Assembly: GCA_947625515.1 (NCBI GenBank)
Contig: CANQOO010000001.1
Coordinates: forward strand, 62,001 to 126,000
Reading direction: 5' to 3'
From: an uncultured Clostridia bacterium
GTDB lineage: Bacteria; Bacillota; Clostridia; Christensenellales; UBA1242
Length of the DNA stretch: 64,000 nucleotides
This document shows positions 16,142 to 64,000 of this stretch, one piece after another (the first letter of the stretch is position 1; each line of letters opens with the position of its first letter). The notes beneath the pieces were generated by a model. It saw only the letters and a list, made by a program, of their open reading frames with translations, searched no databases and was not told the DNA's origin. Position numbers and translations under genes: made by a program.

Positions 16142-17068
16142 TCAGAACGTCCCCAGTGTGAGACTTATGTCGCCAGAGAAAGAGGCGTCATTAATGTGAT
16201 TGCCTACACGCGTGAAAAGACCATACCAATACATCTCCTGAGGAAAAGATCTTGTAATAACGGCCCCCATGACAGCCAAGCATTCATTTGAAGCACTCCC
16301 ATCCAAGAAATAAGCATATTTACTGTTGATGCCTTGCGTTTGAAAATACGGAAATTCACCATTCCAATCTTCTGCATCAAGTTGTTGTTCGAGCTTAACA
16401 GCATATTGCGAGAAAGTCATCGTTTCTGACGACTTAGGGATTGTGAGATCAAGTGGTAACCAATCTGGCCAATCTTCTTCAAAAAATTCATCGTCATCTG
16501 GCCAATCTGCAAGCTCTGTATTACTAACATCTCCGTTCTTGTCAAAATTGTGAATATTATATTGCACAGGGAGTTCAGAATCCCCATCGAGATTTATGAC
16601 TGATAGAGATATTGTGAAACAGACCTGCTCATCAATGATAAGATTTGACATTTGAAATTTATCTTCTGTCACAGTTCCATCGTGCAATATCACTTCCTTC
16701 ATATCCTTCACAACCTTGCTGTCAATTTGGAAATCTAAATTAATTGGGTCGAATTGTTTGCTGAGTGTGCCGCTCTCATTTCCAGTAAATTCCATATAAT
16801 CTTGGTCGCCAATGGTAAGAGGCTGGATATAGCACAGGGTGCTGTCACCAGAATAACTCGGATAATTTTCCTTATCAACATAGCGGCATTCCACATAAGT
16901 CTCCACCCACCCTACAATGGCGGCCTTGACGTTTTTGGCGGTGTAGGAAATGTTGAATGTGCTGGAAACTTGTCCTTGCAGTGCGGCGAGGGTTATGCCC
17001 ACGGATGTTGCAGCCACCACAAGCACCATGGCAAAACACCCGACCACCGTCCATATTTTCTTTTTCAT
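16142..17068 (-). CDS. N-terminally anchored surface protein, subfamily A
   Basis: MKKKIWTVVGCFAMVLVVAATSVGITLAALQGQVSSTFNISYTAKNVKAAIVG...; RBS ggagaac before ATG at 17068; paralogue of 3..740; N-terminus resembles the 32434..33951 product. Confidence 0.8.
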   Translation of the reverse strand: MKKKIWTVVGCFAMVLVVAATSVGITLAALQGQVSSTFNISYTAKNVKAAIVGWVETYVECRYVDKENYPSYSGDSTLCYIQPLTIGDQDYMEFTGNESGTLSKQFDPINLDFQIDSKVVKDMKEVILHDGTVTEDKFQMSNLIIDEQVCFTISLSVINLDGDSELPVQYNIHNFDKNGDVSNTELADWPDDDEFFEEDWPDWLPLDLTIPKSSETMTFSQYAVKLEQQLDAEDWNGEFPYFQTQGINSKYAYFLDGSASNECLAVMGAVITRSFPQEMYWYGLFTRVGNHINDASFSGDISLTLGTF

Positions 17069-17120: not shown

Positions 17121-17148
17121 ATTTTAGCGGGGGGGGGATTTTTGTCAA
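17121..17148 (-). promoter_or_regulatory. Predicted promoter with a C9 homopolymer in the -35/-10 spacer
   Basis: Minus strand reads TTGACA-AAAATCCCCCCCCCGC(16 nt)-TAAAAT, about 50 nt upstream of the ATG at 17068. Confidence 0.7.
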
Positions 17149-32433: not shown

Positions 32434-33951
32434 TTATGCTGCCAAGTCCGCGGCAAGTTTTGTGAGGTTCAAGTGGAACGCCGGGCGAACGGCATTTGCA
32501 TGATTAACACCGCTTGGATATGCAGCCATAGGGTTGAGTCCTAATATATAAACAGCACCAGTGGTTCCTGTATATGAAGTGCGTGTCCAACAATAATCTG
32601 GGCTCTTATATTGTTCTCCAGAAACTTTCCACATGCCCGGGTAGCCTTTATCCACGGTACTATTGCCAACTTCTTGATAAGATGGAATCCATATGGTGTC
32701 TTTCTTCCAGCCATCAGAGGCGTCATTTTGTTGCCATGATACATTTTCTGGAGTAACAATATATTTTGTCAAACCTAAACTTTCCATTGTTAATAAGGCA
32801 AATGCGGAGGACGATTGTTTTTCAAAAGTAGCCACATAATTATCGTAGTTGCCAGTTGCATATGACCCACCATTGTTTAACACAGCACATCTTAAATATG
32901 ATATACCATAATCGTCTGCACGGTGTGACGAAATCTCTGTCTGCCAATTCGCAAAGTTTGCTCGTCCATGATAGTCAAACGTTTGATCTAAATCATATTT
33001 TAATCCTTCAAGTTCAGAAGAATCTGCCAGCCAAAGGGTGAGGATGGCGTTGCCCTCGGTGTCGCGGGAGAGGTAGGTTGGGGTCCATTTAAAGCCGCCA
33101 ATTTCAATAATAATTTCGGAATTCAAGCCCTTTGCACTTACGCCTGGATTTATGGAATTTATGGATGCAGCGTTCGCTTTTGCAATCAACTGTTCGGATG
33201 TTGTGTTCGCGTCTGCCAAGGTGTCAATTGCCGACATATTGGTGACCGATGTTGTGGAGTCGCCGCTGATTGTCTGCAAAACTGTGTTTACGGGGTCTTC
33301 TTCAAATTCTCCGGAGATGATGTTGAACATGTCAGTTGGCTCTGCCAGCCCGTCCAAAAAGAATGAGCATTCTCCTTGGGCATTTTTGACGTCTTTGGTT
33401 GGGTCAAGCAAACTGAGTTTGATGCCAATGTCAAGCACGCCTTGGCCGGTGGATTGAGGTTTGACATACATCGTTGACAGAGAAGCACGGTTGCAGTCAT
33501 ATTTTGCATCGGTGGCGGTGGATGTGCGATAAGCGGCAGCGTAAGAGATTTCCAAATTGGAGTTTTCCAGCCCCGTGAGGTTGATTGTCACAGCAAAGCC
33601 GTTGCTCTCACTGGTGTTTTGAATGGTGTAGTGAAATTCAGCATAGTCCTTGTAGTCCTTAAAGACGATGCTTGGCTCGTTGGTGAACTTCTGCTCACTC
33701 CCCGTAGCCTCGTTGCCAGAGAAGGTCAAATCATCCCCCAAGCTTTCGCTTACACCTGAGCCGGTGATGTATGACCCAGAAATTATGGCATGCACGTTGC
33801 GGGCGGTGTATCTGACATTGAAAGATGTCTTCACATTGGCGTTGATGGCTGCCCATGTGACACCCACAGAGGCGGCAATGGTGAGCACCATCAAGGCAAA
33901 CAAACTTAATGTTTTCCAAATTTTCTTTTTTCCGAATTCTTTAGTTGCCAT
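32434..33951 (-). CDS. N-terminally anchored surface protein, subfamily B (DUF6273-like C-terminal domain)
   Basis: KKKIWKTLSLFALMVLTIAASVGVTWAAINANVKTSFNVRYTARNVHAIISG N-terminus like 16142..17068; C-terminal half like 61896..63262 (GGFKWTPTYLS...ILTLWLADSSEL...VRPAFHLNLTKLA). Confidence 0.78.
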   Translation of the reverse strand: MATKEFGKKKIWKTLSLFALMVLTIAASVGVTWAAINANVKTSFNVRYTARNVHAIISGSYITGSGVSESLGDDLTFSGNEATGSEQKFTNEPSIVFKDYKDYAEFHYTIQNTSESNGFAVTINLTGLENSNLEISYAAAYRTSTATDAKYDCNRASLSTMYVKPQSTGQGVLDIGIKLSLLDPTKDVKNAQGECSFFLDGLAEPTDMFNIISGEFEEDPVNTVLQTISGDSTTSVTNMSAIDTLADANTTSEQLIAKANAASINSINPGVSAKGLNSEIIIEIGGFKWTPTYLSRDTEGNAILTLWLADSSELEGLKYDLDQTFDYHGRANFANWQTEISSHRADDYGISYLRCAVLNNGGSYATGNYDNYVATFEKQSSSAFALLTMESLGLTKYIVTPENVSWQQNDASDGWKKDTIWIPSYQEVGNSTVDKGYPGMWKVSGEQYKSPDYCWTRTSYTGTTGAVYILGLNPMAAYPSGVNHANAVRPAFHLNLTKLAADLAA

Positions 33952-34242
33952 TTTCTTCTCCTTATAAAACATCTTCATTATATCACATACTCTTATAAAA
34001 TTCCGAATGTTTTTTCAAAAGTTTTTTAAAAAAAAATTGTTTCGCTTCTCATTTTTCAAGAATTATTGCCACTTTTTTAACAAATTTTGTTGTGTTTTTG
34101 CACAAATTCGCCTCATTTTTGCACGAATTTTGCGTTGAGTGTGGCTGGAATTGCCTAGCGGAATGAAAAATTAGCCAGCAGCAGCCGCCCTGACTGCTCA
34201 AAAAGTTTGCCTGCCGCAAAAAAAATGTGCTAAAATTGGGCT

Positions 34243-61669: not shown

Positions 61670-61698
61670 TTGACAAACATAATTTTTTTTGAGATAAT
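61670..61698 (+). promoter_or_regulatory. Promoter of surface-protein copy 1
   Basis: TTGACA-N17-GATAAT, with T8 in the spacer; conserved upstream of copy 2. Confidence 0.7.
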
Positions 61699-61895
61699 AA
61701 GAATGAATTTTAATACATTGATTTTATGAACAAACAAATTTTTAAATAAGTTGTTTCAATTTGCAATAAGTTGAACTGTCAAAAACAATAAATAATTTAA
61801 GGACAAATTGCTCTATTTAAAAATATCAATAAAAAAACGTTATCAAATTACAAATTTGAGCGAAAATAATATTAAGAAAAAAAGGAGAGACAGAT

Positions 61896-63262
61896 ATGAG
61901 ACGTAAATTCGCGGGGGGGGGATTTTTGATAAGCTGAAATACACCGGCTTTGTTTGTCTTTTTCTTTTTGTTATCACTTGCACTATGGCTAACATTGTTT
62001 TGGCTGCTCTTTCGACCGGAATCGAGGGCGGCTTTTCTGTTATCTATGACGTGCCGCAGGACCTGTGGGACAATATATCCCAAATTTTTGACAGATACAA
62101 TGTCAACAAACTTTTGTGGAACATTTCAGGCGACAGCACAGCGACGGTGGACAATATGGCACCGATTGAGGCCCTCGCAGCAACAAGGATGACATCTGCG
62201 GACATGATTGCAAATTACAACAAGGTGAACCCCGCATCTGCGAACGCCGATTTGTCTGCATATGCAAACTCCGCTTCTGCTGATGCCGCTTATTATTCAT
62301 CCGCAAATGCTGCTTCTGTTTCTGCAAATCCCGCCACATCAAGCGAATATTTAATTCCTGCAAACTTTGCTTCTGCGGACGACGATTATTCCGTCTCTGC
62401 CATGAGCAATAATGCAGAAATTATTGTCACATTTGCCGGGCTTAAATGGACGCCAGTATATCTTTCCACCACCAACGAGGGAAAAGACAACGAACCACAC
62501 GATGTCATTCTCACTCTTTGGCTTACTGACGCCTCGCAACTGAGTGGAGAAACTTATGCCGACGGGAAAACATTTGATGAAAACGGAAATTCCACTTGGA
62601 GCAGTGGCTTTTCTTCAAGCGATAACACACGCGTGCCATATCCATCAGCAATGTATGGAACAAGTTATATGAGTGCTGTTGTCTTGAATAATGGCGGCGG
62701 ATATATCACAAGTGAGGGTGCAACAGAATTGACACAAGCACAGCAAAATGCAAGCAGCGTTTTTGCCAAATTCACAATGAAGGATTTTGGCTTGGCACAA
62801 TATTTGGTGACACCTGAGCATGTGCTGTGGCAGAAGGAGGGTCAAAGTACACAAACTTTTATTGGTGGCGAAGATGCCATATCGTATAACTGCCCGAACG
62901 AAAACTGGTCAAATGATGTGCCAGACGATGGGTTCTATGTGGATGAAAATGGCGATGCAACAAAATATAACTACGCCCATAAAACGGGCAATGATGCATG
63001 GAAAGATGATTATCTTTGGTTGCCATCCCTATCAGAGACGGGCTATACTAATAAGTATAACGGGATTTGGTGCACATCTGAGAACCAACGTAAAAACATG
63101 GCATATTCGTGGTCACGCACAGGCTATTATAGTTATTCTAACTATGCATACTATTTTACGCCAGGTGGCTATTACTGGCGATACCATGTTGAGAGTACTT
63201 ATGGCGTCCGTCCAGCACTGCACTTGAACCTCACTGAGGTGGCGAAAAGCCTGAAAAAATAA
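61896..63262 (+). CDS. Surface protein, subfamily B copy 1; G9 tract puts the start out of frame (phase OFF)
   Basis: RBS aaaggagag-ATG AGA CGT AAA TTC GC-G9-ATTTTTGATAAGCTGA reaches an early stop. Adding one G joins it to the 425-aa ORF at 61985 (MANIVLAALSTGIEGG...VRPALHLNLTEVAKSLKK). Confidence 0.8.
61913..61921 (+). repeat. G9 homopolymer contingency tract (OFF length)
   Basis: Counted directly: gc + 9 g + attttt. Confidence 0.9.
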
Positions 63263-63407
63263 CGAACGATAAAAGCCATAACTATGGGGTGGCAATGTCT
63301 GCAATAAACAAAACCTTCCAAAATATCGCGAATTGCAATAATCGGAAAACAAAAAATAGTTTGGAAATATAAATTAAGGACAGTTTTTTGCATTTTGAGA
63401 TAAAAAA

Positions 63408-63429
63408 CTCTGCATGGCAGAGATTTTTT
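63408..63429 (+). terminator. Terminator after surface-protein copy 1
   Basis: CTCTGC-ATG-GCAGAG-ATTTTTT. Confidence 0.85.
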
Positions 63430-63450
63430 CGTTATCGCAGGAATTTTTGC

Positions 63451-63479
63451 TTGACAAAAACAATTTTTTTTGAGATAAT
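63451..63479 (+). promoter_or_regulatory. Promoter of surface-protein copy 2
   Basis: TTGACA-N17-GATAAT, T8 in spacer, same architecture as copy 1. Confidence 0.7.
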
Positions 63480-63645
63480 AAGAATGAACTTTAATACATT
63501 AATGTTTTGAACAAACAAATTTTTAAATAGTGGCTTGAAATTTCCACTTTCAAAACAATAAATTTAAAAATAAAAATATCAATAAAAAACGTTATCAAAT
63601 TACAAATTTGAGCGAAAATAATATGAAGAAAAAGGAGAGACAAAA

Positions 63646-64000
63646 ATGAGACGTAAATTCGCGGGGGGGGGGATTTTTGATAAACTAAAATTAACCGGCT
63701 TTGTTTGCTTGTTTCTCTTTGTCATCACTTGCACTATGGCTAACATTGTTTTGGCTGCTCTTTCGACTGGAATCGAGGGCGGCTTTTCTGTTATCTATGA
63801 AATTCCGCAGGACCTATGGGACCGAGTGTCACAAATCTTTGACAAAAGCAATGTCAACAAACTGTTGTGGAACATCTCAGGCGACAACACAGCGACGGTG
63901 GACAATATGGCACCGATTGAAGCCCTTGCAGCAAGCAGGATGACCTCAGAAGACATGATTGCAAACTACAACAAGGTGAACCCCGCATCTGTTGACAAGG
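63646..64000 (+). CDS. Surface protein, subfamily B copy 2; G10 tract in frame (phase ON); 3' end outside window
   Basis: ATG AGA CGT AAA TTC GCG GGG GGG GGG ATT TTT GAT AAA CTA ... ATG GCT AAC ATT GTT is open to the window end; near-identical to copy 1. Missed in the ORF track, likely because its stop lies outside the window. Confidence 0.85.
   Translation, partial: MRRKFAGGGIFDKLKLTGFVCLFLFVITCTMANIVLAALSTGIEGGFSVIYEIPQDLWDRVSQIFDKSNVNKLLWNISGDNTATVDNMAPIEALAASRMTSEDMIANYNKVNPASVDK
63663..63672 (+). repeat. G10 homopolymer contingency tract (ON length)
   Basis: Counted directly: gc + 10 g + attttt. Confidence 0.9.

Follow-up and report, generated by a model that had tools for sequence, protein, structure and literature searches.

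Two neighbouring genes at the end of the 64-kb stretch of DNA analysed here (the window), which comes from an uncultured Clostridia bacterium, carry runs of guanine in their leaders that differ in length by one base. Is this a pair of genes caught in opposite states of a translational switch and, if so, how far does the switching reach? The sequence-only reading of the locus proposed that a poly-G tract sets the reading frame of both genes and that the two form a contingency locus alternating surface antigens. In our judgement, slipped-strand phase variation of a secreted-protein family with DUF6273-like C-terminal domains is very probably the best explanation. The mechanism first proposed is supported, but its scope was too narrow: what we find is a 16-member repertoire together with promoter switches, rather than a two-gene locus.

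Tandem genes with G tracts of unlike length

The leaders of copies 1 and 2, both read directly, have the form ATGAGACGTAAATTCGC-Gn-ATTTTTGATAA, and a predicted promoter (TTGACA, 17-nt spacer, GATAAT) and a GGAG-type ribosome-binding site precede each gene; the earlier description of this layout was exact to the base. Copy 1 runs on the forward strand from its leader ATG at 61896 to the stop of its body (61896–63262), preceded by a predicted promoter at 61670–61698 (TTGACA at 61670–61675, a 17-nt spacer containing T8, and GATAAT at 61693–61698) and the ribosome-binding site GGAGAG at 61884–61889. Its tract of nine G (61913–61921) leads into MRRKFAGGGFLIS and a stop codon, giving a 13-aa product, and the frame would be open if the tract length mod 3 equalled 1. 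Copy 2, also on the forward strand, has a predicted promoter of the same layout at 63451–63479 (TTGACA, 17-nt spacer with T8, GATAAT), an ATG at 63646 and ten G at 63663–63672. Its frame stays open up to the window end (63646–64000) and encodes 462 aa when traced beyond the window edge in the genome. The assignment of copy 1 as OFF and copy 2 as ON thus stands.

The body frame of copy 1 is open from 61922 to 63259 (446 aa), with its stop at 63260–63262. One further G would join the leader to this frame, as had been predicted; the 425-aa reading frame named as its target, however, begins at an internal ATG of the 446-aa frame, at 61985, and the segment from 61922 to 61985 holds the bulk of the signal-peptide-like hydrophobic stretch. 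A search of the 64-kb window for Rfam elements found none.

Runs of this length are far in excess of chance. The window holds seven G8 words against 0.77 expected, a count reached in none of 100 shuffles, and its G runs become about six-fold rarer with each extra base up to length 5–6, are absent at lengths 7 and 8, and reappear as three runs of 9–10. Extrapolation of this decay to the 1.114-Mb genome predicts about 0.25 runs of G or C of at least nine bases, whereas a whole-genome pattern search, after which the surrounding stretches were examined, catalogued 35 distinct ones. The genome is a draft of 11 contigs, 80.7% complete, and its consensus hides heterogeneity.

A family of 16 putatively frame-switched paralogues

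The genome-wide scan for leader tracts of at least G8 in paralogues, which the sequence-only reading had called for, recovered 16 genes whose leader contains a G run (searches with the leader and the first 106 body residues). One carries G8, thirteen carry G9 and two carry G10; six are ON and ten OFF, so that the ON fraction is near the one third predicted for free-running frames. The ON set comprises both G10 copies and four G9 copies in which other bases after the tract shift the length needed, and some differences of state are therefore not differences of tract length. OFF copies encode products of 11–13 aa, and gain or loss of a single G can decide whether such a peptide or the body of an intact gene is read. 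Even the two most similar copies, C8:733 and C9:819, which share 96.2% identity across 713 bp, are unlike in tract length: one is G9 OFF and the other G10 ON. The predominance of G9 here (13/16) and in a second species (8/10) indicates that the variation across the G8–G10 range is modest.

The bodies of the OFF copies are all open and stop-free over 385–460 aa, one of them being truncated where its contig ends. Between OFF copies, median dN/dS is 0.14 in the first 100 residues and 0.23 in the rest, closely resembling the 0.11 and 0.28 found between ON copies, and we therefore conclude that the OFF copies are not decaying. Median dS among the 16 is about 0.45 in the first 100 residues and above 1 in the remainder; conversion may have evened out the N-terminal part, or the C-terminal part may have been exchanged. 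This greater likeness of the N-terminal parts, suggestive as it is of exchange or conversion, would suit a view of the OFF copies as decaying pseudogenes or as silent cassettes that serve recombination only, with no slippage switch at all. We consider that view the least credible of those weighed here: in every OFF copy the leader and ribosome-binding site are retained and purifying selection acts on an open body, the tandem copies 1 and 2 have a promoter apiece, and tracts also occur in genes without such paralogy.

The tract itself is still pure G despite a dS of about 0.45 in neighbouring codons. A need for a Gly-Gly-Gly linker at the protein level was rejected as its sole cause, because GGG is a minority codon (27 of 216 glycine codons in four ordinary genes) and because similar tracts serve as non-coding promoter spacers. 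In the congener G019, ten leaders of the form ATGAAAAGAAAAATTGC are followed by G9 (eight copies, OFF) or G10 (two copies, ON) and then by a related signal-peptide-like stretch; compared with our genome, the tract has been retained within flanking DNA that is no longer the same.

This second species also bears on whether the OFF states might be artefacts, all true tracts being in frame and the OFF readings arising from homopolymer errors in assembly. The genome is a metagenome-type draft assembly, and poly-G is known to be difficult for sequencing and PCR (PMC9187656). Yet G019, assembled separately, shows the same mixture of G9 OFF and G10 ON, G9 reads ON in copies with different next bases, and errors of assembly would not yield 35 long runs sited in leaders and promoter spacers; we regard this account as very unlikely. 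A poly-G frame switch remains the best reading of the family, given a tract kept in 16 paralogues and in ten copies of a second species, lengths that are unlike between close paralogues with about one third ON, and OFF bodies that are intact and under purifying selection.

Other carriers of the C-terminal domain were also seen. A paralogue of 514 aa sharing the C-terminal domain family lies on the reverse strand at 32434–33978, with a TATAAT box and no homopolymer tract, and is apparently unswitched. The domain also recurs around C6 22992–23864, as part of a giant protein whose open frame spans about 9400 aa. Copies of the leader were looked for in viral contigs and none was found.

Tracts as probable promoter spacers

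Of the 35 long runs, 15 lie between TTGACA and a TATAAT-like box (in one, the −35 box is cut by a contig end). These tracts are mostly found just 5′ of a start codon, mainly of genes with signal-peptide or lipoprotein-like leaders. When at most one mismatch per box was tolerated, −35 and −10 boxes were found around the tract in 13 of 34 cases in our genome and in 15 of about 30 in a sample from the genus, against 0.4 expected in each. Taken together with the leader tracts, this points to poly-G/C switches that are apparently both translational and transcriptional.

The window contains one example, which the sequence-only reading had left unlinked: a G9 run at 17129–17137 sits inside a predicted promoter on the reverse strand (17121–17148), where it reads TTGACA-AAAAT-C9-GC-TAAAAT with a 16-nt spacer. 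Behind it, also on the reverse strand, lies a gene for a 308-aa protein of secreted type with a MKKKIWTVVGCFAMVLVVAATSVGITLAAL leader and no Pfam match (16145–17068). This promoter is one of four copies in the genome, with tracts of C9, C9, C10 and C11 and corresponding spacers of 16, 16, 17 and 18 nt.

The arrangement extends to relatives. Poly-C promoter tracts matching TTGACA-N0-6-C8 are present in 31 of 61 genomes of the genus, and TTGACA-N0-8-G8-N0-8-TATAAT in 22 of 200 genomes of the order; the reversed control patterns gave zero matches in the same 61 and 200 genomes, respectively. At the 49 sites of the latter kind, the flanks on either side of the tract compensate for one another (r = −0.72; none of 20000 shuffles was as tight) and the spacer length peaks at 16, a combination that is hard to explain unless the tract is a working promoter spacer. 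In our own genome, 7 of the 13 tract-bearing promoters (among which L041, L042, L047 and L052 were noted) have a 20-nt spacer, against a mode of 16 in the relatives; four of these seven have a TGn-extended −10, which may reduce their dependence on spacing. Relatives from other genomes, labelled Bacilli or Clostridia (L107, L104 and L113), likewise have G9–G12 separating TTGAC from a TATAAT-like box ahead of related genes.

The promoter tracts weigh on a further explanation, in which the tract would set a level rather than ON or OFF: through frameshifting by the ribosome, or slippage of RNA polymerase on the G run, G9 copies would yield some full-length protein. Polymerases do slip on sequences of this kind, and OFF bodies are constrained no less than ON bodies, as would be expected if they were always partly expressed; back-and-forth switching, however, would preserve OFF bodies too. 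Because frameshifting leaves both the poly-C/G promoter spacers and the length differences between near-identical copies unexplained, we hold it to be improbable, although less so than the artefact and pseudogene accounts above, and continue with DNA slippage as the preferred reading.

Three further long runs lie within open genes, all ON. In a lipoprotein-like gene (L062:13027–15333), the run at C10:13099 is in frame, and the glycines it encodes immediately follow the cysteine of the lipobox (LLGCGGGG). Of the other two genes, one (C6:10436) is related to the beta-lactamase/serine-hydrolase fold and the other (C6:4294) is sulfatase-like. Runs of G9 and G11 at C6:54437 and C6:55452, which have similar upstream flanks (ggcgggtattgc), belong to neither the leader nor the promoter class.

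Probable identity of the proteins

The leader is composed of a basic start, the glycine run and a hydrophobic helix, and this signal-peptide-like composition is what would place the proteins at the surface. Between its framework positions the C-terminal half varies strongly, and its last residues are VRPALHLNL. Against DUF6273 (PF19789), copy 1 scores 22.1 bits, below the Pfam gathering cut-off of 23.5, while a related gene (C3:235–2016) exceeds it with 27.8 bits. Comparison of the predicted structure (pLDDT 76.6) with others gave viral DUF6273 proteins at E-values of about 1e-3 to 1e-2, several with a probability near 1, and the sole PDB match below 1e-3 is the IgA peptidase of Thomasclavelia ramosa, which itself carries an N-terminal DUF6273 domain. 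DUF6273 domains of phage proteins have been related to the C-type lectin fold by published models (PMC10743442); our model brings up lectin chains in the PDB only at E-values of 1.9 or worse. The likeliest role would be that of a binding protein at the cell surface. A diversity-generating retroelement was considered as the source of the C-terminal diversity and set aside, there being no match to reverse transcriptase (PF00078) in the 80.7% complete genome.

Discussion

We propose the following mechanism. Each of the 16 secreted-protein genes would have a separate contingency switch, a poly-G tract lying at the 5′ end of the region encoding the signal peptide, and slippage of the DNA polymerase would alter the tract by one G. 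In most copies, only a length with n mod 3 = 1 (such as 10) would allow read-through into the body, any other giving a peptide of 11–13 aa. The copies would switch one by one; they look independent of one another, rather than alternating as had been suggested, and independent switching would produce cells that differ in which members they bear of a lectin-like (DUF6273-type) repertoire with diverse C termini. Poly-C tracts would meanwhile form the −35/−10 spacer of about 15 other promoters, the spacing tuning transcription. We infer that slippage is the cause, that switching is reversible in a population and that the proteins are displayed at the surface, where the benefit would presumably concern host immunity, phage or glycan binding. 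MutS is present in all 61 genomes of the genus and has a full-length frame in our own; loss of mismatch repair was accordingly rejected, and the switching would have no help from general hypermutability.

Individual features of this arrangement are found in several known systems. The opa genes of Neisseria have coding repeats, in the form of pentamers, in the leader region of many paralogues. They share with the present family dispersed surface-protein paralogues in which a slippage-prone repeat near the start sets the frame, but here the repeat is a G homopolymer, the protein families are unrelated and the host is a reduced-genome Clostridia relative. The porA gene of Neisseria has a poly-G promoter. 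Slipped-strand switching is documented in this genus, where the poly-C promoter tract of opc changes from 11C to 12C or 14C (PMC6389960). In opc and porA, as would be the case here, a homopolymer in the promoter tunes transcription through spacing, but these are single genes, compared with about 15 promoters in our genome and a habit spread over genus and order.

Among gut commensals, Bifidobacterium breve provides a close parallel, a G tract within the gene lying between a Sec-signal reading frame and the remainder of a surface protein in its sortase-pilus clusters, with slippage measured by deep sequencing (PMC9187656). It is a member of the Actinobacteria with one or two pilus clusters per genome, as against 16 paralogues here. 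Homopolymer slippage also has a precedent in the Firmicutes, in the poly-C tract of group A Streptococcus mga (PMC10330708, in the account given by PMC11868660), which affects one regulator gene rather than a repertoire. The phasome of Campylobacter jejuni involves chiefly surface-modification genes, whereas it is the secreted-protein family itself that would be switched here. Its many poly-G/C loci, coding and intergenic in a small genome, are otherwise similar (PMC6321876).

The mechanism is thus of a known kind, slippage phase variation, while the lineage, the gene family and the size of the repertoire look new; among open-licence papers we found no account of a phasome on this scale in uncultured Clostridia. 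On balance, we favour the view that this reduced-genome Clostridia lineage has a genome-wide poly-G/C phasome, with 16 frame-switched lectin-like paralogues and about 15 spacer-switched promoters, tracts of the promoter-spacer type recurring in the genus and order. This suggests large-scale random surface switching beyond the well-studied pathogens, in an uncultured gut-type Clostridia bacterium whose lineage is not known as a pathogen. The 1.1-Mb genome offers over 30 candidate switches and the promoter type is repeated in genus and order, so the proposal is testable with existing gut metagenome reads. If it is true, slippage phase variation at many loci would be usual in a large commensal lineage and no mark of pathogens, and what gene calling in such genomes records as ‘frameshifted’ or ‘fragmented’ may be an intact gene that is switched off.
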